Origin: a virus
Reading direction: 5' to 3' (one strand)
Length of the DNA: 31,381 nucleotides
IMG/VR virus record: IMGVR_UViG_3300031521_000253
Location: 1-31,381 of that record
Both the position numbers and the translations under genes were made by a program. Below the pieces are notes generated by a model, which ran no database searches, was not told where the DNA came from, and saw nothing but the letters and a program-made list of their open reading frames with translations. Positions 3,771 through 23,721 of this stretch are shown here, in pieces. Within the stretch, counting starts at the first letter, position 1. Each line of letters begins with the position of its first letter.

Positions 3771-3796
3771 ATAGGTTATTTTTTCCTTCTTGTCAA
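3768..3796 (-). promoter_or_regulatory. consensus sigma-A promoter (TTGACA-N17-TATAAT)
   Basis: A perfect -35 box (3791-3796) and a perfect -10 box (3768-3773) are separated by 17 bases on the minus strand. The -35 box contains the TGA stop of the dpdA-like gene. It should be read by the host housekeeping RNA polymerase without phage factors and drives the genes from 3703 leftward to SPFH and perhaps rtcB. Confidence 0.9.
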
Positions 3797-5763
3797 TCCT
3801 TTTTTTCTGGGGTTATGTCTATAGTCTCCTCTTCACTGTTTGCTTCCTTATTAGTATTAAAGGACATTCCCCCAAACAAACGGCTCAATATTCCCCCTTG
3901 ATCCCCATTTCCCCTGACTTCCTCTATAGTTTCGACAGTTCCGTTCTCATCCACAACCACTTTTCGCTGTGCAACTATCTGTTTTCCCATAGTTTCCATC
4001 TGTGTCATCATCTGCAAATACTTCATATTGGTATCCATTAAGGAAGTAACATTAGCATCCACCATTCCTCCATCCATCATCTCGAACATCATCATTCTTT
4101 GAAGTCGTTCTAAGTTTCCTTCTACTATAGAATGCATGGCATCCATAAGATCATCGCGGTTACGTGTGCTGAAACGTTTGAACATCTTATTGTAAGCACA
4201 TACATATCCTGCTTGATAGTCAGGGCAGTCTCCCGATTTATAACAGGTAGAACAAGATAGTTGATACATACTATCAGAGTATATCTTCTTAGGTTTCCTA
4301 ACGTGCTTCTGTCCCTTTAGGAACTTCCCCTTCTCATCTCTGACAACTACTATTCCCTGCTTCCTTAATTCATCATCATAAGCATCTACTTCAGGCATAT
4401 CACTTCCCTGTCCCAGTAATCCTGCTAAGTAAGAATCACAATCTTTCTTTGAAAGGTCTAATGCAATAGTCTGCTCCTCTTCGATGTATTGTTCCCTTTC
4501 CTTCCCTTTGATTTTAGTAAGGTCTACTTCCTCCTCAGAGAGGTTTGAGTACTCACTCCTCTTTCTGTCTGCATGATCCTTAAAACATTGTGGCAATGCT
4601 TCTAAGGCTTTCTTAGAGGTGTTCACATCTGAGACTCCGAATACATCACAAAATGCGAATAATTCCTCAGTAGTAAACATATCTAGCTTTTCCTTATCAA
4701 ATTCTATAAATGCTTTGAAAGTTCCTATTAGAGAAATTACTTCATCCATATTCCCATTAGTATCTATCCCTAGCACTTTAGCATAAGGTTTCCAATCCAC
4801 ACAATCCCCATCAAACCATTCTACAGCAGGGAGAGTTCCTCTAGGAAGTTCTTCAATATCTTCTTCCACAACTTTCACTCCCTTATTAGACAACCAATAA
4901 GATTTAGTCTTAATCCTCTTTCGTACATGTGCTTCCACTTCGAGGAAGGTGAGAACATTGATACGTATAAGTTCATAAGGTTCTTCTCTTTCGGCTAATG
5001 CCCAATTCGCTCCAAGCTTGATAAGTTTATTCTTAAACTGACGTTTCCACTTATCCTTTTTGAGACGTTTCATACATCTCCCATCAAAATAGTTTATCTC
5101 CCCATATTGTGTTCCTATTAGCCAAGTAGTGGAATCTACACTTCTCCAAGGGTAGGAACACATCATGTCGAATCCCGTGACTGCAAATCCATGAACTAAT
5201 GTAAGGTGCTTCTTAGCTAGGTTAAACATTGTAGATAGTTTCTTATCATCATACTCTGCTTCCTTTTCATTTAAGGATATTCCAACATAGTCATATTTAT
5301 TACACATTGTTTCCCAGTCTTTTAGGTCACGGCAAGCGTGCCATACATAAATAACAGTGACTCCCTGCTCCTCTAATGGTTTGAAGTATTCCTCTCTCCA
5401 ACGGTTAACAGTGTCCACTCCTACTAATCCCTCAATATCTAACTCGGCAATAGCATATACATGATCCTTATTCTCTAATGCCCACTTGGTATACTTATCT
5501 AAATACTTCTCCCAGTATTCGATAGGCTTATTTTCGTACTCTTCCTTATTCATAAAAGTATGTGCTCCTGAGTCTACTATAAGCTGTAGATTAGGACATA
5601 CTTCTAGTAATCCTTGTATAAACTTCTTCCCTTTCCTTTGAAGGTAATGAAAGGACATCAGCATTGTGCTAGTCTCTTTAGCTACAATGTTAAAGTACTT
5701 GTCACTTTCAACTCCTGAGAAGAATATACTAACTTCACTCTTCCTTATATCATTAATATTCAC
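3793..5763 (-). CDS. dpdA: DpdA-like TGT-family transglycosylase with long C-terminal extension
   Basis: A 656-residue protein whose first 300 residues match the tRNA-guanine transglycosylase fold as used by phage DpdA enzymes, which exchange guanine in DNA for a 7-deazaguanine. Visible: VDSGAHTF (63-70; D64 equals the catalytic TGT Asp), AIAELDIEG (104-112), LVHGFAVTG (189-197) and SVDSTTW (208-214; D210 as likely nucleophile). Residues about 300-656 are extra: charged helices, a cysteine cluster CSTC-x5-C-x8-C (504-522), a Met-rich helical stretch (540-595) and an acidic tail. Start is GTG, overlapping the radical SAM stop (GTGA). Co-location with folE and queD/E/C supports DNA modification rather than tRNA queuosine. 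Confidence 0.85.
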   Translation of the reverse strand: MNINDIRKSEVSIFFSGVESDKYFNIVAKETSTMLMSFHYLQRKGKKFIQGLLEVCPNLQLIVDSGAHTFMNKEEYENKPIEYWEKYLDKYTKWALENKDHVYAIAELDIEGLVGVDTVNRWREEYFKPLEEQGVTVIYVWHACRDLKDWETMCNKYDYVGISLNEKEAEYDDKKLSTMFNLAKKHLTLVHGFAVTGFDMMCSYPWRSVDSTTWLIGTQYGEINYFDGRCMKRLKKDKWKRQFKNKLIKLGANWALAEREEPYELIRINVLTFLEVEAHVRKRIKTKSYWLSNKGVKVVEEDIEELPRGTLPAVEWFDGDCVDWKPYAKVLGIDTNGNMDEVISLIGTFKAFIEFDKEKLDMFTTEELFAFCDVFGVSDVNTSKKALEALPQCFKDHADRKRSEYSNLSEEEVDLTKIKGKEREQYIEEEQTIALDLSKKDCDSYLAGLLGQGSDMPEVDAYDDELRKQGIVVVRDEKGKFLKGQKHVRKPKKIYSDSMYQLSCSTCYKSGDCPDYQAGYVCAYNKMFKRFSTRNRDDLMDAMHSIVEGNLERLQRMMMFEMMDGGMVDANVTSLMDTNMKYLQMMTQMETMGKQIVAQRKVVVDENGTVETIEEVRGNGDQGGILSRLFGGMSFNTNKEANSEEETIDITPEKKD

Positions 5764-6716
5764 ATTTCCACCCCATCTTTATAACAGAAATTCATAAGGG
5801 GGCATAAATCTCTACAGTAGCTACATTGGTTATTCTCTTTGCACACTGTAGCAAATTCACGATTCCTTTCTCTTGATCTATCCCCTGCTTCTAACAACTC
5901 TTCCACATCATCTAACACTATATTGCCCGAACTTCTTCTATCATACCCATCACTATACTCAAATCCGCATCCTAAAACTTCTCCGTCGGGAGTTATAACA
6001 ATTCTATTCACAAACTTCTCACAACTAAACTCAACTCTCAAATGTACATTAGTTATGAAGTCAAATTTCTCACTCTTTATTGCTTCAGCATATCCTCCCT
6101 TAACATCCACGGTGAAATTTCCCCATAATACTTCATGCTCTAAAAATCTCAATGTTTCAATTAATTGTAAAGGAGAAAGTATTAACTCTTTAGGAGTCTT
6201 TCCTAAAGCAAGAACAGGAATTATCCAGAAATCATTTACTCCGACTTCTTGTAATTTTTGAATGTTAGGTATAAGATTTTTATAGTTTAAAGAGGTGAGA
6301 GTAAGGTAAGCAGTCACATGGACACCTAAGTCAGTAAGCATCTTTATATTGTTTATCTCCTGAAAAGGACGTACTGACTCATCCCCCATAAAGGAATCAA
6401 TAGAAACTCCCACATCTGTAAGATTAGGGTACTGAGTGGGTGCAAGGTATCTAATATATGTTGGAATATTAACTCCATTAGTGACTAAACTAAATGTTTT
6501 GTCAGAAGGAATAAAATATATAAGTGAAAATATCTTAGAATCAAGCAACGGTTCTTTCCCCGCAAAGTGGTAATGATCGACATAAGGTGCAAGTTTTCTT
6601 ATAGTTTCTACCCATTCAATAACTGATAATGGAGTACCTACTAGTTTAGTATTCCCTTGGAAGCAATGCTTACAGCTAAGATTGCATATGTTATTAATAA
6701 TTAGTTCAGCTTGCAT
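5760..6716 (-). CDS. radical SAM protein with SPASM-like C-terminus
   Basis: A 318-residue radical SAM enzyme. The cluster motif CNLSCKHC (C11, C15, C18) is canonical CxxxCxxC; HFAGKEPLL (about 51-59) matches the GGEP region that contacts SAM, and ITPDGEVLGC (about 247-256) is a typical SPASM-type segment. The C-terminus carries C292, C298, C301, C305 and C311, enough for an auxiliary Fe-S cluster. It overlaps folE (TAATG) upstream and the dpdA-like gene (GTGA) downstream, so the three are one unit. It is not QueE, which is encoded separately at 8984-9622. The likely role is to modify the 7-deazaguanine base before or after insertion; the reaction is unknown. Confidence 0.88.
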   Translation of the reverse strand: MQAELIINNICNLSCKHCFQGNTKLVGTPLSVIEWVETIRKLAPYVDHYHFAGKEPLLDSKIFSLIYFIPSDKTFSLVTNGVNIPTYIRYLAPTQYPNLTDVGVSIDSFMGDESVRPFQEINNIKMLTDLGVHVTAYLTLTSLNYKNLIPNIQKLQEVGVNDFWIIPVLALGKTPKELILSPLQLIETLRFLEHEVLWGNFTVDVKGGYAEAIKSEKFDFITNVHLRVEFSCEKFVNRIVITPDGEVLGCGFEYSDGYDRRSSGNIVLDDVEELLEAGDRSRERNREFATVCKENNQCSYCRDLCPLMNFCYKDGVEM

Positions 6717-7282
6717 TATCTAATCAACTCCTTAAATGTTAGTAAATGATTAAGATTGGAAGAATGTGTAGTAATCATGGTACTATTTCGAGACTCTATC
6801 CCTCTACATGCAACACAGGTATGTAGGGATTCCACTATAACTACTACAGTCTTGGCATCTAACTCTTCTTGCAGGAAGTGCTGAATATCACTACCAAATC
6901 TCTCCTGTACTTGTGGTCTTTTACTAAAGTAATCAACTACTCTATCCAGTTTACTTATCCCGCAAATTACATCTCTTGGAATATATCCTATATGAACTTT
7001 TCCAAAGAAGGGCATGAAATGGTGCTGACACATAGAACTAAACTCTATATCCTTCTTTATAACCCAATTGCTATTTTCGTCCTCATTAGGAAACACAGTG
7101 AATTCAAAATCCATTTCCCCCAATCCACTAAATCTTTCTAACCACATCTTAACAATCCTCTTAGGTGTATTTAAGTTATGACTATCCTTTGCCTTAAACT
7201 TAGGGTATAGCACACTCAATAAATACATTGCCCTTTCAATATTCTGTTCCATTTCTTTTGTAATATCTTCTTTAATTGACAT
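6716..7282 (-). CDS. folE: GTP cyclohydrolase I (FolE)
   Basis: A 188-residue GTP cyclohydrolase I, the first step from GTP to dihydroneopterin triphosphate, which feeds QueD. Family features: SSMCQHHFMPFFGKVHIGYIP (start at 82; zinc ligand C85, with H87/H88), GISKLDRVVDYFSKRPQVQER (start at 108) and HTC (154-156, second zinc Cys C156). Length is normal for the family. Its substrate use here is almost certainly 7-deazaguanine synthesis, given neighbours. The ATG follows GGGGG at 7 bases; an extended -10 promoter and a strong terminator separate it from the queC operon upstream. Confidence 0.95.
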   Translation of the reverse strand: MSIKEDITKEMEQNIERAMYLLSVLYPKFKAKDSHNLNTPKRIVKMWLERFSGLGEMDFEFTVFPNEDENSNWVIKKDIEFSSMCQHHFMPFFGKVHIGYIPRDVICGISKLDRVVDYFSKRPQVQERFGSDIQHFLQEELDAKTVVVIVESLHTCVACRGIESRNSTMITTHSSNLNHLLTFKELIR

Positions 7283-7305
7283 ATATTTTCCCCCTTTTTC
7301 TTTTT

Positions 7306-7314
7306 AGTATAGCA
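7306..7314 (-). promoter_or_regulatory. extended -10 promoter candidate for folE-radical SAM-dpdA
   Basis: TGCTATACT (extended -10, TGn plus a 5/6 TATAAT match) lies between the terminator at 7328-7353 and the folE start, about 25 bases ahead of the ATG. No good -35 box is visible, as is allowed for extended -10 promoters. Confidence 0.55.
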
Positions 7315-7327
7315 TAAGAAACTGAAA

Positions 7328-7353
7328 AAGACCACTAAATTAATAGTGGTCTT
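7328..7353 (-). terminator. strong intrinsic terminator
   Basis: A 10-bp perfect stem (AAGACCACTA / TAGTGGTCTT) with a 6-base loop is followed by TTTCAGTTTC, and the stem end adds more T. It sits 14 bases past the stop of the small basic protein gene and ends that transcript before folE. Confidence 0.85.
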
Positions 7354-7366
7354 GTCCCTTCTGAAA

Positions 7367-7549
7367 TTACTTGTTGGCTTGTCTCCCGCCAGTACTTCCA
7401 AACATTGCTCGTCCTTTTTTAACGACACTAGCTACTGCAGTTCGGGCTTTATTGTAGACTTTAGCTACAGTACCCTGCTTTTTCCCTGCAGTCTTAGCAA
7501 CAGAGGCACTCTTATTACTTCCACCGTTGACAGCATAAACTTTAAACAT
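7367..7549 (-). CDS. small, very basic protein, 60 aa
   Basis: A Lys/Ala/Gly/Ser-rich protein (NGGSNKSASVAKTAGKKQG at 8-26; VKKGRAMFGS at 43-52) with almost no acidic residues, so it probably binds nucleic acid. No family recognised. The ATG at 7549 follows AAGGAG by 10 bases. A GTG at 7606 in the same frame also has AAGGAG (6 bases) and would give a 79-residue form. It stands alone between a candidate promoter (7660-7688) and a strong terminator (7328-7353), which suggests independent and possibly high expression inside the modification cluster. Confidence 0.7.
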   Translation of the reverse strand: MFKVYAVNGGSNKSASVAKTAGKKQGTVAKVYNKARTAVASVVKKGRAMFGSTGGRQANK

Positions 7550-7659
7550 GTAAATCACACTCCTTATAAGTTCAATGTGGGAATGAAACGAATTATTATG
7601 CTCCACTAGGGACTCCTTAAAAGAAGTGCGGGAGGAGTATTCGCTGTCCCATCTATTAT

Positions 7660-7688
7660 ATATTAACATAAAGATAGGAATGCTTCAA
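7660..7688 (-). promoter_or_regulatory. promoter candidate ahead of the basic protein gene
   Basis: TTGAAG (7683-7688), 17 bases, then TAATAT (7660-7665) preceded by TGT as an extended -10. It lies directly behind the queC stop. A TATAAT also occurs at 7656-7661 but at a spacing too long for this -35. The predicted leader is about 100 bases and contains GGGAC/GTCCC pairing. Confidence 0.5.
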
Positions 7689-7691
7689 CCT

Positions 7692-8324
7692 TCAAAATAA
7701 TCTTTTAACTTTTTCTGCAAAGGAATCAGATTTAGCAAATTCTTCTCTAAGTAAACAGTTTGCACATATTCCACATTCCTCTGCTTTTCCGCTACTCATA
7801 TCAGGGAAGTTACAACTCCATGTATCAGATAACTTAACTCCTAACCATTTAGCTTGTGCATATACTTCCTGCTTACTCTTATCTATAAAAGGTGCTTCTA
7901 ATTCCATTCCATACATTCCATTAATAAGAGCATCATAATCTCTCACAAATTTCTTAGTAGCATCGGGGAAGTTAATAGGACATCCCTCAGAAGATATTAA
8001 TCCCACATATATCTTTTTAATTCCATTCATCTCTGCATAGCGGGTAGCATAGGATAAGAAGATAAGGTTACGTGCGGGGTTATAACTCTCAGAATCAGCA
8101 TATAAATCTTGTGGATCAATATTAAGATGATCTAAGAAAGCATTGTGACCTTTCTTCCTCAAATTTTGAATGCATCTTATAGCATAATCCTCTTCAGGCT
8201 GTTCAAATTCCTGCCCATAATGAAAGAATAGTCCACAGACTTCTTCATTATTAACGTCTGCTACATAATGAGCAAGGGTCACACTATCTAGTCCACCACT
8301 CAACAACACTATTGCTTTTTCCAC
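7692..8324 (-). CDS. queC: 7-cyano-7-deazaguanine synthase (QueC)
   Basis: A 210-residue QueC that turns 7-carboxy-7-deazaguanine into preQ0 using ATP and ammonia. The N-type ATP pyrophosphatase loop is LSGGLDSVT (8-16), YNPARNLIFLSYA (81-93) is the characteristic QueC segment, and the zinc site is C171, C184, C187 and C190 (CGICANCLLRE). The start is GTG with GGAGG 8 bases upstream; no other start is plausible. It is the last biosynthetic gene of the queD-queE-hyp-HAD-queC operon. No amidotransferase domain that would point to an archaeosine-type product is attached. Confidence 0.96.
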   Translation of the reverse strand: MEKAIVLLSGGLDSVTLAHYVADVNNEEVCGLFFHYGQEFEQPEEDYAIRCIQNLRKKGHNAFLDHLNIDPQDLYADSESYNPARNLIFLSYATRYAEMNGIKKIYVGLISSEGCPINFPDATKKFVRDYDALINGMYGMELEAPFIDKSKQEVYAQAKWLGVKLSDTWSCNFPDMSSGKAEECGICANCLLREEFAKSDSFAEKVKRLF

Positions 8325-8336
8325 AATTAATTCCTC

Positions 8337-8708
8337 CTAAAAATCATCTACGTTTATAGCACGATCATCTAAGTAATGATGTGCAAATATCTTTGCTCCG
8401 CATCTCCCATTCTCAGCAGATAATATCTGTCTGATTTCGTCAACACATTCAAATGATTCTTTAATCCAAGGTGCTTGATCATTGACTGCATCGGGAACTA
8501 GACCATACTTCTTACACCATTTTAAAGCTTGTTCAAGAGTGTCTAACTCACGACAAGTCCAGAGGATGATAAAAGTTCCTCTACGTTGTAGGTCAATTAC
8601 TTTCTCAATTATGTCAAGTTTAGGTTCTCCAATATTGGGGAATGCGTTTTTGCAAAGTGTCCCATCAAAATCTACTGCCATTATTATTTTAGTTGAGCAA
8701 TCCGCCAT
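8337..8708 (-). CDS. HAD-superfamily phosphatase-like protein
   Basis: A 123-residue compact HAD-like protein. AVDFDGTL (about 11-18) is motif I with the nucleophile Asp, TFIILWTCRE (about 45-54) matches motif II, and YLDDRAI (near 113-119) is the acidic motif IV. No large cap domain. The start at 8708 has GGGAGG about 8 bases upstream; the frame extends further but through that site. It overlaps the previous gene by 20 bases and lies between queE and queC. Similar small HADs are common in phages and their substrates are mostly unknown; a nucleotide phosphatase role in base supply is possible. Confidence 0.82.
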   Translation of the reverse strand: MADCSTKIIMAVDFDGTLCKNAFPNIGEPKLDIIEKVIDLQRRGTFIILWTCRELDTLEQALKWCKKYGLVPDAVNDQAPWIKESFECVDEIRQILSAENGRCGAKIFAHHYLDDRAINVDDF

Positions 8709-8967
8709 TGTCATATCCTCCCTGTATTTTTTCTTCCTCATAGTCAAAGAATACAATCCCCTTGATTCCTATACTATTTATAAATTCAGTAGTAAATTCC
8801 TGTGCAACTAAGTAGAAGCATTCACTTAAAGGATCTTCTGCTTTAGAAGTAGTCACCATATTCAAGGCTATCTGTTCGGAATCTTCTTTGCTTTCTGCAA
8901 CGAGTAGCGTAGTGGCTATTTCTCTTTTATCCTCTGTAGAGAATACTATAAGGTAAGGGTATAACAT
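8689..8967 (-). CDS. hypothetical protein, 92 aa
   Basis: Unrecognised acidic protein with alternating beta/alpha character (YPYLIVFSTEDKREIATTLLVA at the start; a pattern seen in small phage proteins that resemble a ferredoxin-like fold). It sits between queE and the HAD gene in the queD-to-queC operon, with GGAGG at 9 bases ahead of the ATG and a 20-base overlap with the HAD gene. Its retention within the pathway operon suggests, but does not show, a related function. Confidence 0.75.
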   Translation of the reverse strand: MLYPYLIVFSTEDKREIATTLLVAESKEDSEQIALNMVTTSKAEDPLSECFYLVAQEFTTEFINSIGIKGIVFFDYEEEKIQGGYDNGGLLN

Positions 8968-8983
8968 AAGTATATTCCTCCTA

Positions 8984-9622
8984 TTATTTTAATCCTATTA
9001 CTTTATGAATTTGTATCCCAAGTCTCACATTAGGAAGCTTATCTCCCTCAATCCAATCTGCTAATTCCCTAGCATTACTTCCCCCGCTCTCATTAAAGCA
9101 AGGTGAGAATATAATCTGAGCAATGGTAGGATATTGCTTTATAACTCCTTTTGCAAAGAGATAATCGGTAAAGTCCGCGATCACAAACTTAACTTCATCT
9201 TTAGCTAATAGGTTTCCTAAATTAGCGTAGCAATTATTCCCCGCCATATTAGATGAAGGACACTTAACATCCATACAGTAGTAGAAACTCCTGTTGTAGT
9301 TATCTTTATCGATGGGAATACTCCCGTTAGTTTCTATATCAACTACATACTGTCTTTCTACAAGTGCATATATCAATGGATATACTTCATCCTGTATCAA
9401 TGGTTCTCCTCCTGTTAAACAAATATTCTTATTCCCTAACTTTCCTACGGTATTGAGTATCATATCAATACCAGCTTTACTCCGTTTTCCCTCCCTCGCA
9501 TACTGAGTATCACAATATGAGCAATACAGATTGCATCGGAAAAGACGGATGAAGGTGGTAGGAACTCCTGTGAATTTTCCTTCTCCTTGGAGAGAAGAGA
9601 ATATCTCACTTACTGATAACAT
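8984..9622 (-). CDS. queE: 7-carboxy-7-deazaguanine synthase (QueE)
   Basis: A 212-residue radical SAM enzyme converting carboxy-tetrahydropterin to 7-carboxy-7-deazaguanine. SEIFSSLQGEGKFTGVPTTF (start at 5) is the QueE signature, CNLYCSYC (about 30-37) is the Fe-S motif and ICLTGGEPL (about 67-75) binds SAM. ETNGS follows as in the family. I prefer the ATG at 9622, preceded by AGAGAGG, because the resulting N-terminus matches QueE; the frame also has an ATG at 9655 inside queD with a poor binding site. Second gene of the operon after queD. Confidence 0.95.
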   Translation of the reverse strand: MLSVSEIFSSLQGEGKFTGVPTTFIRLFRCNLYCSYCDTQYAREGKRSKAGIDMILNTVGKLGNKNICLTGGEPLIQDEVYPLIYALVERQYVVDIETNGSIPIDKDNYNRSFYYCMDVKCPSSNMAGNNCYANLGNLLAKDEVKFVIADFTDYLFAKGVIKQYPTIAQIIFSPCFNESGGSNARELADWIEGDKLPNVRLGIQIHKVIGLK

Positions 9623-9638
9623 TTCATCATCCCTCTCT

Positions 9639-10019
9639 TTAAATTTCTTCACCATTGTACTCTACATAACATTCGGGATAATTTTCCCATAACTTTACTG
9701 ATTGAAGGTACAATCCTAAATACTCATCATCTAGTTCGGACTGTAACTGGGTAAATATCCATACTGCAAGATTTTCTGCTGTGGGGTTAAAAGGCAGTAC
9801 TTCATTAAGAAACTTATGATCTAACTTACTAACTATAAGGTCATTTATTAAAGACTTCATAACTTTAAAATCTATGGCGATCCCCATACTATCCAATCCA
9901 TTACGTGCAACTGTTACACTAAATCGCCAAGAATGTCCATGAGTATTTCCGCAATCCCCCTTGTATCCTTCGATAAAGTGGGCTGAATCAAACTTAAATT
10001 CTCTTGTTACATATATCAT
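9639..10019 (-). CDS. queD: 6-carboxy-tetrahydropterin synthase (QueD)
   Basis: A 126-residue QueD/PTPS-family enzyme, making 6-carboxy-5,6,7,8-tetrahydropterin from the FolE product. Zinc ligands H14, H27 and H29 lie in FDSAHF and GNTHGHSW, with catalytic C23 two residues ahead of GNTHG; LDHKFLN and PTAENLA are the family's later motifs, and the Glu in WENYPECYVEY closes the site. The start is the ATG at 10019 (AAGGAG 7 bases upstream); a GTG two codons earlier is too near the binding site. The gene starts just beyond the terminator-like hairpin of the SpoVS-like gene without a visible promoter. Confidence 0.95.
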   Translation of the reverse strand: MIYVTREFKFDSAHFIEGYKGDCGNTHGHSWRFSVTVARNGLDSMGIAIDFKVMKSLINDLIVSKLDHKFLNEVLPFNPTAENLAVWIFTQLQSELDDEYLGLYLQSVKLWENYPECYVEYNGEEI

Positions 10020-10042
10020 TTCCACACTCCTTATAAAGAAAA

Positions 10043-10065: not shown

Positions 10066-10347
10066 TTACTTCAGTTCAACTATGAAACGAATGATTGTCT
10101 TCTCTTCTCCATTGATCTGAGCAACTTTAAATCCCATACGACTATAGACAGCTTGCCCATAGTTTCCGAGGTGTCCTGAACTAATGGCAATTGCTTTGAC
10201 AGCTTGATTGACTGCTCCCGCTCCAATAGCTAGGATTTCTACGGGACTTGCGGGGGCATCTCCATCACCTTTTAATGCATGAGAGATACTTCCTGCTACT
10301 TTCTTAACAGGTGAATCGGCTTTTACTTTTAGAGTTACAAATTCCAT
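10066..10347 (-). CDS. SpoVS-like (Alba-fold) protein
   Basis: A 93-residue homologue of stage V sporulation protein S. The match is clear: VKKVAGSISHAL (14-25), EILAIGAGAVNQAVKAIAISSGHL (start 38) and a closing NGEEKTIIRFIVELK (79-93), as in SpoVS where GAGALNQAVKA and GEERTAIKLIVEPR occupy the same places. SpoVS-type proteins are small Alba-like nucleic acid binders of sporulating Bacillota and Deinococcus-Thermus. The ATG has AAGGAGG at 9 bases; the gene overlaps the signal peptidase stop by 13 bases and ends in a strong terminator. Function in infection could be RNA/DNA binding or interference with sporulation. Confidence 0.9.
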   Translation of the reverse strand: MEFVTLKVKADSPVKKVAGSISHALKGDGDAPASPVEILAIGAGAVNQAVKAIAISSGHLGNYGQAVYSRMGFKVAQINGEEKTIIRFIVELK

Positions 10348-10712
10348 TTTCTTATTTCCTCCTTAAATTTTACTACTTGTCCTATCACTTTTGATGGATC
10401 AATAAATCCGAAGCTTCTACTATCAATTGAGTCCTCTAAATTATCCCCTACAAAGAATAAAGATAACTTTCCATCTGTGGGGGAAACTGCAATATAGTGC
10501 AGTCTTTTCAAGCAAGGTATTCCTAACGGACTATCAAATACATATACATTATCAACTGTCAGTGTTGCGGATTTCTTTACCAGAATCCACTGTCCTGAGT
10601 AGAATGTAGGATACATACTTGAACCTTCAACTTGATTGATAGAATACTTACGTACTAAATACAGAATACCTGAAATCAAAAGTAATGTCAAGATAATAGT
10701 TGTAGCTGTCAT
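10335..10712 (-). CDS. signal peptidase I (S26 family)
   Basis: A 125-residue minimal type I signal peptidase. One N-terminal membrane anchor (about residues 4-20) is followed by EGSSMYPTF (29-37, catalytic S32), CLKRLHY (67-73, general base K69) and FVGDNLEDSIDSRSFGFI (87-104, the box with GDN and DSR). All catalytic elements are present. It is shorter than cellular enzymes. The ATG at 10712 shares bases with the stop of the preceding 30-residue membrane peptide (TGATG), and its GGAGG lies inside that peptide's gene. A phage-coded Lep enzyme is uncommon; its substrate could be a phage-coded exported protein. Confidence 0.88.
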   Translation of the reverse strand: MTATTIILTLLLISGILYLVRKYSINQVEGSSMYPTFYSGQWILVKKSATLTVDNVYVFDSPLGIPCLKRLHYIAVSPTDGKLSLFFVGDNLEDSIDSRSFGFIDPSKVIGQVVKFKEEIRKWNL

Positions 10713-10804
10713 CACCAATCTCTCCTCCCGAAGTAAACACAAAACATGAAAAATGTAAGGAATAATAAATCTATATGAGTATTAGCAAAGTCCCAAAAAG
10801 TCAT
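10712..10804 (-). CDS. 30-aa membrane micro-protein coupled to the signal peptidase
   Basis: The frame begins at an ATG one base after the previous gene's stop, with GAGGAGG 8-13 bases upstream inside that gene, and ends in TGA overlapping the signal peptidase ATG (TGATG). The product MTFWDFANTHIDLL plus a hydrophobic FLTFFMFCVYF span (about residues 15-25) and a basic GRRDW tail fits a one-span membrane peptide. Exact filling of the gap and coupling on both sides make it credible despite its length. It may regulate or anchor the signal peptidase; that is inference. Confidence 0.65.
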   Translation of the reverse strand: MTFWDFANTHIDLLFLTFFMFCVYFGRRDW

Positions 10805-12134: not shown

Positions 12135-12719
12135 TCAATTCCTCCTCTTATTATTAACGTTATCAACTCTACCTTGATCTTTAAAATCCCCTTCTCTACG
12201 GGAAATTTCTCTTGATATACTAAATATTCCATCTACTAAATTGTCCATATAGTCTGACAGCATATTGTACTTTTCTTGAAGGAACTGAAGTTCTTCTATC
12301 TTCTCCATTGCTTCGAGATCCACGGATAATTTCAATTCCTTTTCGGTAACACTCATCTTTTTATCTTGTGACGAGAATACTCTGTCTTTAATAGGTGCAA
12401 ATTCATCTTCCTTTTCCCGCAACATCGCTCCTACTCTACTCATGAAAGTTCTTACCCAAATCTTCTGTTGGGTGAATGTATGCAAGTAACGTCCTAACTC
12501 CTTAGATTGTTCATCATCAAGATGTGGAGGCAATTGTAAGTATTCAGAGTCTACAGTATCATTAGTAAACATTTTAATTCCTGCAGTTGTCACTAATTCT
12601 GCTTCTATTTGCTCATAACGGGTATCACCTTTAAATACTACTTTAGCACTCTCTGCTACTTCGTCAGGTTCTTCTCTCTTTATCCGTTTTAACTCTCCCT
12701 TTTTTCCTTTAGGTATCAT
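12135..12719 (-). CDS. helical phage protein, possible UvsY-like recombination mediator
   Basis: A 194-residue, mostly helical protein. An N-terminal basic/acidic linker (1-35) is followed by LPPHLDDEQSKELGRYLHTFTQQKIWVRTFMSRVG (from about 63) and a run with MSVTEKELKLSVDLEAMEK (about 121) leading into a long amphipathic helix ending in ISREISRR. The order of a charged helix, a K-x(2)-S-x(4)-K-L-x-V-D element and a final helix is reminiscent of UvsY, the loader of T4 UvsX, and the window holds a UvsX/RecA-type recombinase and an SSB. This is a pattern-level resemblance only. The ATG has AGGAGGG upstream. Confidence 0.5.
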   Translation of the reverse strand: MIPKGKKGELKRIKREEPDEVAESAKVVFKGDTRYEQIEAELVTTAGIKMFTNDTVDSEYLQLPPHLDDEQSKELGRYLHTFTQQKIWVRTFMSRVGAMLREKEDEFAPIKDRVFSSQDKKMSVTEKELKLSVDLEAMEKIEELQFLQEKYNMLSDYMDNLVDGIFSISREISRREGDFKDQGRVDNVNNKRRN

Positions 12720-12749
12720 TGCTATATTTCCCTCCTATGGTATAAGAAT

Positions 12750-12776
12750 AAAGGGAGGAACAAAGTCCTCCTCTTT
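12750..12776 (-). terminator. intrinsic terminator-like hairpin
   Basis: GGAGGA/TCCTCC with a 6-base loop, extended by AAAG/CTTT across a single-base bulge, then ATTCTT on the minus strand. It follows directly after the stop of the 47-residue zinc-ribbon gene. Confidence 0.6.
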
Positions 12777-12777
12777 C

Positions 12778-12921
12778 TTATTCTACTACTGGAATTTCTT
12801 TTACTTCACGAATAGCACAGACAGGGCATTCCACAATAGCTTTATCTTTTGCTTCTCCTAACCAAGTGATTAGGCTCATCTGTCGTCCACATTTAGGACA
12901 TTCAATTGCAGGTAGGCTCAT
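12778..12921 (-). CDS. zinc-ribbon mini-protein, 47 aa
   Basis: Begins MSLPAIECPKCGRQM; CPKC (8-11) and CPVC (about 32-35) form a single ribbon and the tail is EIPVVE. The binding site ahead of the ATG (AAGAAGGGATGTG) is weaker than most here. It is flanked by a candidate promoter (12945-12972) and a terminator-like hairpin (12750-12776), so it looks like a one-gene transcription unit within the colinear region. Confidence 0.75.
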   Translation of the reverse strand: MSLPAIECPKCGRQMSLITWLGEAKDKAIVECPVCAIREVKEIPVVE

Positions 12922-12944
12922 ATTAATCACATCCCTTCTTTAAT

Positions 12945-12972
12945 AGTTTACCACAATCTGAAAAAAGTTCAA
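12945..12972 (-). promoter_or_regulatory. promoter candidate for the 47-aa zinc-ribbon gene
   Basis: TTGAAC (12967-12972), 16 bases, TAAACT (12945-12950) preceded by TGG (extended -10). It fills the gap between the stop of the gene at 12977 and the ATG at 12921, the only longer non-coding gap nearby. Confidence 0.55.
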
Positions 12973-12976
12973 GTGT

Positions 12977-13597
12977 TTACTTAGAGTTATATTGGACAAA
13001 CTTTAATCCTATTGCTTGGTCTGCTTGGGAAGCATATCCCCAAACATTGAAAGGGGTCTTTGCTATACGATAGTCTGCTTGAACAGCATATCCTCCCTTA
13101 GTAGCTTTACCTATCCCTATTCCCCACTTTGGTTGTGGTACTTCTACATTAATGTTCATACTAGAAGTACTGGAATAGTTAAACTGTCCTTTATCTAACT
13201 TAGCAAACTCTTTAAAGTCAGGCATAAATGACATAGGCTTTCCACCATTAAAACTCATAGTATAGGTCTGCTGTTTCTGATCCACTACAAAGTCAGGGTC
13301 ATTCTTAGGGTCAACTTTCTCTTTCATCTGTGCTACTGCTTCTGTTGTTCCCTGTGTCTGTAAGTTAACATAGATATCAGGGACTCTAGGGGTTACTTGT
13401 CCCGCTGAGTTTATATTAATAGGGGCAGGGGTTTGGACTACTACTTTATTATCTTTCCTTAGAAATCCTCTCACATCATCTAGTAGCGTCCATACTAATA
13501 TTAGAACAGCAATTCCCATTAAGATCTTAAACCAATTCTCTTTTAGTTCAGTCTTAAACCACGACTCAGCTTTAACTAATATCTCAGGTTCATCCAT
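12977..13597 (-). CDS. single-pass membrane protein, 206 aa
   Basis: A cytoplasmic N-terminus (about 20 residues) leads to one transmembrane segment (about residues 24-42, WFKILMGIAVLILVWTLL), then a Pro/Asn/Val-rich linker and a beta-rich C-terminal half with repeated GIGIGKATKGGYAVQADYRIAK-type strands (about 155-175), as in small outer or spanin-like beta proteins or tubular phage membrane proteins. No family assignment. The ATG at 13597 overlaps the upstream stop (TGATG) and has AAGGAGG. Confidence 0.75.
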   Translation of the reverse strand: MDEPEILVKAESWFKTELKENWFKILMGIAVLILVWTLLDDVRGFLRKDNKVVVQTPAPININSAGQVTPRVPDIYVNLQTQGTTEAVAQMKEKVDPKNDPDFVVDQKQQTYTMSFNGGKPMSFMPDFKEFAKLDKGQFNYSSTSSMNINVEVPQPKWGIGIGKATKGGYAVQADYRIAKTPFNVWGYASQADQAIGLKFVQYNSK

Positions 13598-13929
13598 CAA
13601 TTATCCTCCTTATTCCACTTCTTAACTTGTTGCATTACCAATGCAAGAGTTTGACTCATATTCCATATATTTTCTGTAGCATCTTTTTTAATATTAAACA
13701 TAGCTTCCTCTTCTTCTTCAAGAGGAATAATTCCTTCAAAACAAACATAGTGATAATTCTTATCCCTTAACTTGATCCCTAATTGAGATTTATCGATCCT
13801 CTGTCTCCAATTTCCTTTCACCATAATCATCTTCTCAGTTTCCTTAGTAACAGTTAATTCAGTTCGCTCGATTCTTACTCCAATTTCATTTACTTCCACA
13901 TGAATTTCAACTAATTTTTCCACTTTCAT
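13597..13929 (-). CDS. hypothetical protein, 110 aa
   Basis: Unrecognised protein with an N-terminal beta-strand region (VEIHVEVNEIGVRIERTELTV, from 7), basic middle, an acidic run of five Glu (about 71-75) and a helical end. It overlaps both neighbours by a few bases (ATGA at the start, TGATG at the end), so it is translated in step with the metallopeptidase ahead and the membrane protein behind it. Confidence 0.72.
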   Translation of the reverse strand: MKVEKLVEIHVEVNEIGVRIERTELTVTKETEKMIMVKGNWRQRIDKSQLGIKLRDKNYHYVCFEGIIPLEEEEEAMFNIKKDATENIWNMSQTLALVMQQVKKWNKEDN

Positions 13930-14312
13930 TCCCCTCTCTTTAAGTTTACTAATTGTCGGGCAGTGTCCTCAATTATTGAGTGCATTTCCCTATACTCAGC
14001 ACCATCTTCCTCATTATTACAGCTTAGTTTTGCAAACTGTAGATGAAGGATTTCGTGTACTAAAGTTTCTTCCATATCCCACTCAAAATCATAATTAGCT
14101 TCTTTGTAATCCTCATATCTAAGAATTTTTATAACAGCTTGTTTACTGGAAAGAACATAGGTCACGTTACCTAATTCATCTGGCATACTACAAGACCTAA
14201 CAAACTTAACACATATTTCCCAATTATTCAATCCTAATTTACACATCCAGTATTCTAATAACAGTTCTAGTTCATCCTGCGATCTGATATAAAAAGCTTT
14301 TTCTTTTCTCAT
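13926..14312 (-). CDS. small zinc metallopeptidase-like protein (HEILH)
   Basis: A 128-residue protein whose only clear motif is ETLVHEILHLQF, with HEILH at residues 86-90 as the zinc and catalytic site and E115 (HSIIEDTAR) as a plausible third ligand, a short gluzincin/minimal metallopeptidase layout. The first half has a WEICVKF strand and YVLSSKQAVIKI, as in small phage or host metallopeptidases of the SprT/ImmA-like size class. ImmA-like enzymes cleave repressors, so a regulatory protease is one option. The ATG has AAGGAG 5 bases upstream. Confidence 0.75.
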   Translation of the reverse strand: MRKEKAFYIRSQDELELLLEYWMCKLGLNNWEICVKFVRSCSMPDELGNVTYVLSSKQAVIKILRYEDYKEANYDFEWDMEETLVHEILHLQFAKLSCNNEEDGAEYREMHSIIEDTARQLVNLKRGE

Positions 14313-14321
14313 ACTCTCTCC

Positions 14322-23080: not shown

Positions 23081-23155
23081 TGGTAGTCTCAAATGGAATT
23101 GAACCAATATCAAAGCCTTATAAGGACTCTGCACTAACCATTATGCTATGAGACT
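23081..23155 (-). tRNA. tRNA-Ile (UAU)
   Basis: Acceptor AGTCTCA/TGAGACT, discriminator A and encoded CCA. Anticodon loop CTTATAA gives UAU (codon AUA). D arm GCA...TGC and T arm with TTCAATT are present. One T:T mismatch in the T stem. AUA is rarely used by many Firmicutes hosts but common in AT-rich phage genes. Confidence 0.85.
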
Positions 23156-23156
23156 A

Positions 23157-23232
23157 TGGCAGGGATAACTGGACTCGAACCAGTGCATCGCAGATTAACA
23201 GTCTGCTATCTTACCAACTTGACTATATCCCT
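23157..23232 (-). tRNA. tRNA-Asn (GUU)
   Basis: Acceptor AGGGATA/TATCCCT, discriminator G, encoded CCA, anticodon stem GCAGA/TCTGC around loop CTGTTAA (GUU). T arm ACTGG-TTCGAGT-CCAGT is perfect. A cloverleaf without mismatches in the main stems. It carries a GUN anticodon, the substrate class for queuosine in tRNAs. Confidence 0.93.
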
Positions 23233-23235
23233 GTT

Positions 23236-23310
23236 TGGCAGTCCGTAGGAGAATTGAACTCCTATCTCTTGATTTACAATCAAGAATAATGACCATTATA
23301 CGAACGGACT
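23236..23310 (-). tRNA. tRNA with GUA anticodon in a class I body (Asp-like body)
   Basis: Acceptor AGTCCGT/ACGGACT, G73, encoded CCA, anticodon stem CTTGA/TCAAG with loop TTGTAAA (GUA, Tyr), T stem AGGAG/CTCCT. It has a short 4-base variable region, whereas bacterial tRNA-Tyr has a long one, and G73 and the GTCCG acceptor core resemble tRNA-Asp. A true class II tRNA-Tyr(GUA) is present at 23469-23554, so this one's charging identity is doubtful. Confidence 0.78.
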
Positions 23311-23313
23311 AAT

Positions 23314-23387
23314 TGGTGGGGACACTAAGATTTGAACTTAGGATCGCAGAATCAAAGTCTGCTGTGTTACCATTACACTATGTCCCT
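23314..23387 (-). tRNA. tRNA-Gln (UUG)
   Basis: Acceptor AGGGACA/TGTCCCC with an open first pair, as is usual for Gln tRNAs; discriminator A and encoded CCA. Anticodon loop CTTTGAT gives UUG. The D stem GTGT/ACAC, anticodon stem GCAGA/TCTGC and T stem CTAAG/CTTAG are perfect. Confidence 0.9.
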
Positions 23388-23390
23388 ATT

Positions 23391-23465
23391 TGGCGAGAAA
23401 GGTAAGAATCGAACTCACGACATTCTGTTTTGGAGACAGACGTTCTTCCACTGAACTACTTTCCC
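23391..23465 (-). tRNA. tRNA-Trp (CCA)
   Basis: Acceptor GGGAAAG/CTTTCTC (one G:U), discriminator G and encoded CCA. Anticodon stem TCTGT/ACAGA with loop CTCCAAA gives the Trp anticodon CCA. T stem GTGAG/CTTAC has one G:U. D stem GTTC/GAAC. Confidence 0.92.
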
Positions 23466-23468
23466 TTA

Positions 23469-23554
23469 TGGTGTGCGAGGTAGGAGTCGAACCTACGGTG
23501 TTTCTCTGTGAGGGATTTACAATCCCCTGTCTTCGCCACTAGACACACTCACAC
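23469..23554 (-). tRNA. tRNA-Tyr (GUA), class II
   Basis: Acceptor GTGTGAG/CTCGCAC, discriminator A, encoded CCA, D stem TGTC/GACA. Anticodon stem GGGGA/TCCCT around TTGTAAA (GUA) and a long variable arm of about 14 bases, as normal for bacterial tRNA-Tyr. T stem GTAGG/CCTAC. Confidence 0.92.
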
Positions 23555-23561
23555 ATAAAAT

Positions 23562-23635
23562 TGGAAGCGGGTGCAAGAGTTGAACTTGCTGTTTCTAGGT
23601 TATGAGCCTAGCGTGATCCGTGTCACTCCCCCGCA
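23562..23635 (-). tRNA. tRNA-Met-type (CAU)
   Basis: Anticodon stem CTAGG/CCTAG with loop CTCATAA (CAU), T stem GCAAG/CTTGC, encoded CCA. The acceptor TGCGGGG/ACCCGCT has an unpaired 1:72 pair (as in initiator tRNAs), a G:A pair at 7:66 and U73. It could be initiator, elongator or (if lysidine-modified) Ile2; the anticodon stem lacks the three G:C pairs of initiators. Confidence 0.78.
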
Positions 23636-23646
23636 ATGTTAATTTT

Positions 23647-23721
23647 TGGAGCGAATGAGGGAAGTCGAATCCCTGTTTCCAACTTGGAAGGATGGCACAC
23701 TAACCACTGTGTTACATTCGC
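23647..23721 (-). tRNA. tRNA-Gly (UCC)
   Basis: Acceptor GCGAATG/CATTCGC, discriminator U (usual for Gly) and encoded CCA. Anticodon loop CTTCCAA gives UCC (GGA codons). The anticodon stem CCATC/GTTGG has one T:T mismatch; T stem AGGGA/TCCCT is perfect. Confidence 0.88.

Follow-up and report, generated by a model that had tools for sequence, protein, structure and literature searches.

What does a phage gain from a full set of genes for making a 7-deazaguanine, and why would an additional radical S-adenosylmethionine (SAM) enzyme be encoded among them? The question is raised by the virus record IMGVR_UViG_3300031521_000253, whose 31,381 bp are referred to here as the window and are probably a fragment of a phage genome. 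Its gene cluster encodes FolE, QueD, QueE and QueC, a DpdA protein and a radical SAM/SPASM protein (hereafter rSAM). Probably, this phage pathway makes a 7-deazaguanine and inserts it in the phage's own DNA, with the rSAM most likely tailoring the base. The reading is built on the gene content, domain homology, catalytic motifs and operon overlaps of the window and on the fusion of rSAM to QueC in two relatives. The core gene set is already known in phages; the new element is the QueC-linked radical SAM enzyme.

preQ0 genes and a DpdA-type protein

QueD, QueE, QueC, FolE and DpdA are encoded by intact minus-strand open reading frames (ORFs) between positions 3793 and 10025 of the window. A preliminary description of the DNA, made from its letters, had already recognized the four preQ0 genes and a DpdA-like protein at the end of their cluster; its starting point of 3793 was right, and its end, placed at 10019, moves to 10025. 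Each of the four enzymes matches its Pfam family (GTP_cyclohydroI for FolE, 1e-48; PTPS for QueD, 8.6e-35; QueC, 4.3e-34; Radical_SAM for QueE, 2.6e-09), and all four keep their active-site motifs (Table 1). Against the curated NCBIfam models, QueD passed its cut-off (9.1e-28; 96.5 bits versus 89.25), while the scores of QueE (1.7e-54), QueC and FolE were all under theirs. The same FolE/QueD/QueE/QueC/DpdA set recurs in all four relatives examined, designated L001, L004, L215 and L216, and five intact, functionally linked genes with such a recurrence go far beyond chance. To judge from sequence, the FolE, QueD, QueE, QueC and DpdA core is a further member of the already known phage pathway.

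Work on other phages has shown what such a set can produce. The minimal combination of FolE, QueD, QueE, QueC and DpdA gives 2'-deoxy-preQ0 (dPreQ0) in the two phages tested, Escherichia phage CAjan and Mycobacterium phage Rosebush (Hutinet et al. 2019, PMC6884629), and deletion of DpdA from CAjan removes dPreQ0 from its DNA (PMC6884629). Like the window, these phages carry the five proteins without an amidotransferase, and the DpdA of CAjan, which was checked, belongs to the same protein group, PHROG 887. They differ in that the window has an extra radical SAM/SPASM gene and an extra haloacid dehalogenase (HAD) gene, and in that the CAjan DpdA has 306 aa as against 656 aa, with a long C-terminal region, in the window.

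By the published rule for the minimal set, the default of the core genes would be dPreQ0 in part of the guanines (PMC6884629). The preliminary description had spoken of known phages replacing G and had expected preQ0 or 7-carboxy forms by default. Deazaguanine is indeed present in such phages, yet the exchange is partial, with dPreQ0 at about 28–32% of G in published phages with exactly the minimal set (PMC6884629); of the two expected products, preQ0 holds, while a 7-carboxy form is not the default because QueC is intact. QueC also carries no amidotransferase domain in the window, where it consists of 210 aa with the QueC domain only, as had been noticed. As to the reported lack of QueF, the enzyme that marks a dPreQ1 system, the sole QueF-type matches across five lineages (six phage records, which may be fragments) were sub-cut-off and lay inside FolE, which itself belongs to that fold family; with the record probably a fragment, the absence of QueF and of an amidotransferase applies to the record rather than to the whole phage.

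The DpdA protein has no TGT (tRNA-guanine transglycosylase) match in Pfam or NCBIfam. It does match PHROG 887, named "queuine tRNA-ribosyltransferase" (9e-82), which also holds the proteins of CAjan and BRET; GenBank holds no near relative, the best match being 33% identical over 35% of the protein. The predicted core covers approximately residues 11–291, with a model confidence (pLDDT) mostly of 50–88. Foldseek alone put aldolases first, and TGTs came first only after VIA-align with model residues 1–291, when all 50 listed structure matches were TGTs, with Z of 14.2–14.7 over 263–281 residues (top Z 14.7, root-mean-square deviation 4.2 over 276). The expected DpdA landmarks, DSGAH (residue 64) and VDSTTW (residue 209), are in place. 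D64 aligned with the Asp of the TGT DSGG (DSGGF) motif, and D210 corresponds to the TGT nucleophile (the Asp of FDCVxPxR) in that, as read by eye, both stand at the same distance from the conserved Gly that follows.

A TGT fold would also suit an enzyme acting on tRNA, with preQ0 raised to serve queuosine formation in the tRNAs of host or phage. The window's tRNA array does include a tRNA-Asn(GUU) and two tRNA-Tyr(GUA) genes (75 and 86 bases). This alternative is very unlikely, given how the protein sorts. In a tree of 18 rows, a 100/100 branch split 5/5 TGTs from 13/13 phage DpdA-type proteins, so that the TGT domain did not cluster with tRNA TGTs in the very comparison that the preliminary description had suggested; the window DpdA grouped with those of L001, L004, L215 and L216. 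The bacterial TGT model TIGR00430 had no match in three of three records (the window and the first two relatives), while 14/14 control genomes matched it. The CXCX2C zinc cysteines, present in four of five aligned TGTs, are missing from the DpdA core, and the QueF search in six records gave nothing beyond the FolE cross-match. H191 (in HGFA) was kept in 13/13 DpdA-type rows and in 0/5 TGT rows; it answers to the histidine, at position 196 in the published numbering, that has been described as conserved in DpdA and missing from DpdA2 (PMC6884629). Cui et al. 2023 reportedly distinguished the subfamilies DpdA2, DpdA3 and DpdA4. From homology there is a strong case that the window protein is of the DpdA type and not a tRNA TGT, and likewise for the suggested DNA modification, which gains support from the PHROG shared with the CAjan enzyme, whose loss abolishes dPreQ0 (PMC6884629).

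Beyond the core, the C-terminal region of DpdA is conserved and includes cysteines 504, 507, 513 and 522; no fold is claimed for it because the region was modelled poorly. This cysteine-containing region also shows weak similarity (9e-05) to a PHROG that bears the name terminase small subunit. In Streptomyces phage BRock, a cysteine region of the window type lies within DpdA (L219, 2995–4497), whereas in Bacteroides phage BS162P1 it is a separate gene directly after dpdA (L144, 10941–11696), and no gene for radical SAM tailoring was seen next to the two. In the BRock protein, annotated as a queuine tRNA-ribosyltransferase, the nucleophile Asp is replaced by Ser (SVSSTSW), so that the protein may be inactive or altered in function. 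In a gut phage (L145, MT835482.1, 9902–12142), a long insert, intein-like by eye, splits the DpdA ORF within its active-site motif (DS...TTW). As to distribution, a DpdA sequence pattern, LKKDKWK, found 55 stretches and yielded the decisive relatives L175, L184 and L185. A prophage-based host search, run without a positive control, found DpdA in 0 of 398 genomes, and partial matches occurred in only 2 of 72,556 plasmid records.

A radical SAM/SPASM protein linked to QueC

The rSAM gene overlaps both of its neighbours: its start shares 1 nt with the folE stop (TAATG), and at its other end the stop shares 4 nt with the dpdA start (GTGA). The product matches Radical_SAM (PF04055; 1e-11, 45.8 bits versus a cut-off of 29.5) and comes just under the cut-off for SPASM (PF13186; 3.1e-4, 21.4 bits versus 21.5). 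It carries C11/C15/C18 (CNLSCKHC, CX3CX2C), GKEP at residues 53–56 and CX12GX4C (C232 to C250), followed by C292, C298, C301, C305 and C311.

Three of the five lineages have the rSAM gene (the window, L004 and L215), and in two of these three it is fused to QueC. In L004, whose DpdA is 36% identical to that of the window, the rSAM homologue is attached to the QueC C-terminus in a single 573-aa ORF. In L215, an 84.5-kb record, QueC and rSAM share one 617-aa ORF, and the record G004 has the same operon with equal scores. The CX3CX2C, GKEP and CX12GX4C motifs are common to the three rSAMs, which are 28–32% identical and are mutual best matches at 82–139 bits. The 15 comparators (14 bacterial and one from a Stenotrophomonas phage), most of which are presumably MoaA-like by motif, reached at most 61.2 bits, and every one has GGEP instead of GKEP at the equivalent site. 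The three cluster at 91/94 support, a modest value for a grouping made fragile by very long branches. In L004, folE and dpdA are separated by a flavodoxin/FMN-reductase-like gene, whose product might supply electrons to radical SAM enzymes. The preliminary description had treated the radical SAM protein as a caveat to the expected product; it may well alter that product, but its place was understated, since the fusions to QueC make it the most interesting part of the locus.

An extra domain fused to QueC is already known to alter the product of this same pathway. In the Gat-QueC phages, such as Enterobacteria phage 9g and BRET, that domain is a glutamine amidotransferase (Gat) N-terminal to QueC, whereas the radical SAM/SPASM domain follows QueC at the C-terminal side in L004 and L215 and has a gene of its own in the window. 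The Gat fusion leads to dG+, and its authors proposed channelling from Gat-QueC to DpdA (PMC6884629). The parallel suggests that either the QueC product or the DNA-bound base would be the substrate of the radical SAM domain, and there is good reason to infer a tailoring role for the rSAM.

Not every relative has the enzyme. L001, the closest by DpdA (53% identical), has folE overlapping dpdA directly, and the sole rSAM match in its record is weak and lies inside queE; L216 has a single-domain QueC and no rSAM match in its 93.8-kb record (G005). Missing from both, the rSAM is not needed for the core pathway, and two lineages of the same DpdA type lacking it show it to be a variable addition. 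The existence of relatives that have the set but no rSAM, together with the dPreQ0 made from the minimal set in the two tested phages (PMC6884629), would fit a plain dPreQ0 system as in CAjan and Rosebush, with the rSAM a bystander or engaged in an unrelated cellular role. For a bystander, however, fusion to QueC in two relatives and overlaps with both folE and dpdA in a third would be unexpected, and this explanation appears rather unlikely. The QueC proteins of the window and L001 are 31% identical, as against 50–66% for FolE, QueD, QueE and DpdA of the same pair. This could reflect a change of QueC alongside the rSAM, an idea given little weight because QueC is less conserved in most pairs.

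The rSAM could conceivably be a peptide maturase instead, with a small neighbouring protein (e.g., that of 7367–7669), QueC or DpdA as its target. The SPASM structures PqqE and SuiB were among its Foldseek matches, and small uncharacterised ORFs occur within the operon. Such a role is very unlikely, as two relatives have the rSAM fused to a small-molecule enzyme, and among the ORFs of at least 80–90 aa listed for L004 and L215, no conserved small one was noticed beside the rSAM.

With MoaA (GTP 3',8-cyclase), viperin, PqqE/SuiB and other radical SAM/SPASM proteins, the window rSAM shares CX3CX2C, CX9-15GX4C and a partial profile or fold resemblance, but it falls far under their curated cut-offs, has GKEP rather than GGEP, and stands in a QueC/DpdA context. 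Identification as MoaA was rejected at 35.9 of 325 bits, as was that as a prokaryotic viperin or defence gene, at 38.2 of 180 bits and with partial matches that QueE shares. Because the rSAM was modelled poorly (pLDDT 54.8), its fold matches to viperin, NifB and PqqE are not used to name a substrate, and no curated radical SAM equivalog reached its cut-off.

Database searches returned few relatives. The window rSAM alone retrieved none from viral contigs or GenBank phages, and the L004 fusion protein found itself only. A search with an alignment (A2) brought up just the L004 contig once more (as L006), and nothing in genome contigs. The back-translated pattern HFAGKEP picked out 18 viral and at least 119 genome stretches, and a local profile search of all the loci gathered kept only the window locus and the L004 contig. 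With the L215 fusion as query, matches came from 111 of 50,697 phage records and from 53 of 72,556 plasmid records, but no match ran over 80% of the fusion. A profile of the QueC–rSAM fusion (A5) gave QueC-side or radical-SAM-side matches only, and no two-domain match in one open frame, among the matches listed from 398 and 395 genomes. In the literature, as far as it was searchable, no description of a QueC–radical SAM/SPASM fusion was recognised by title or abstract. The presence of rSAM may follow anaerobic hosts. The rSAM-bearing operon of L215 has on its two sides genes (2108–2638 and 12146–14320) that by eye encode an anaerobic ribonucleotide reductase and the activase of that enzyme, and L216, without rSAM, has genes resembling the aerobic class.

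Layout of the cluster and neighbouring genes

The main ORFs of the window are on the minus strand. Read with the genes, the cluster runs from a SpoVS-like gene through queD, queE, a small ORF, the HAD phosphatase gene, queC, another small ORF, folE and the radical SAM/SPASM gene to dpdA (Table 1). The HAD gene has an orthologue at the same position in L001, and the 100-aa ORF between queC and folE had no match at E<=0.1 in a PHROGs search. Upstream of queD in all five lineages are the SpoVS-like gene and a gene that by eye is signal-peptidase-like (S26), at 10066–10742 in the window; in L215, an NrdD-like gene lies between the two.

Table 1. Features of the 7-deazaguanine gene cluster, in window coordinates.
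Feature	Position	Strand	Characteristics
SpoVS-like gene	10066..10347	-	SpoVS 6.3e-19; conserved neighbour, not claimed for the pathway
QueD (6-carboxytetrahydropterin synthase)	9639..10025	-	128 aa; PTPS, QueD equivalog, CGNTHGH
QueE (7-carboxy-7-deazaguanine synthase, radical SAM)	8984..9655	-	223 aa; NCBIfam QueE, CX3CX2C = CNLYCSYC
Small ORF between queE and HAD gene	8689-8967		Overlaps HAD ORF
HAD-type phosphatase, BT0820-like	8337..8756	-	NCBIfam BT0820 family 1.9e-18, under cut-off; start codon uncertain (ORF overlaps 8689-8967)
QueC (preQ0 synthase)	7692..8324	-	210 aa; QueC domain alone; SGGLDS, CGIC
Basic ORF, queC-folE interval	7367..7669	-	100 aa; Pfam HisG_C E 0.02, sub-cut-off
FolE (GTP cyclohydrolase I)	6716..7282	-	188 aa; GTP_cyclohydroI, HH, CVACRG
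Radical SAM/SPASM protein, candidate tailoring enzyme	5760..6716	-	318 aa; Radical_SAM, SPASM
DpdA	3793..5763	-	656 aa; PHROG 887, TGT-fold core, tree

Elsewhere, the record codes for RecA-like, PolA, DnaB-like, primase-like and IstB/DnaC-like proteins and has eight tRNA genes in an array at 23081–23721; the replication genes and tRNAs together mark the window as a phage replication region. A Band 7/SPFH domain protein is encoded at 1623–2537 (3.8e-24).

The predicted base and its significance

In the proposed pathway, FolE, QueD, QueE and QueC would convert GTP to preQ0. DpdA would then exchange guanine in the phage's own DNA for a free deazaguanine base in a reaction analogous to that of TGT, with D64 and D210 as its predicted catalytic aspartates. 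The rSAM is most likely the tailoring enzyme right after QueC, with preQ0, its amide intermediate or the DNA-bound base as the putative substrate, and its action would yield a final base that differs from plain dPreQ0. The likely benefit would be protection from the restriction enzymes of the host.

Several points weigh against this account. The tRNA-Asn(GUU) and the two tRNA-Tyr(GUA) of the window are normal queuosine tRNAs, two of the five lineages do without the rSAM, and the rSAM itself has very long branches in its tree and a poor structure model. Furthermore, SPASM enzymes act mostly on peptides.

The rSAM/SPASM protein may represent a new family of QueC-coupled 7-deazaguanine tailoring enzymes. 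The phages that carry it would then hold a DNA base outside the 7-deazaguanines described so far. It might be, for instance, a 7-position derivative that is carbon-bonded, methylated or rearranged and that arises when radical chemistry acts on preQ0 or on the dPreQ0 of DNA. This is a tentative proposal, whose prospects fall a little short of even. The 7-deazaguanines of phages are a known restriction shield, and the variety of their products stems from the enzymes that accompany QueC and DpdA. A QueC-fused radical SAM enzyme, if true, would be a new route to such variety, from which a natural DNA base of a new kind might come.

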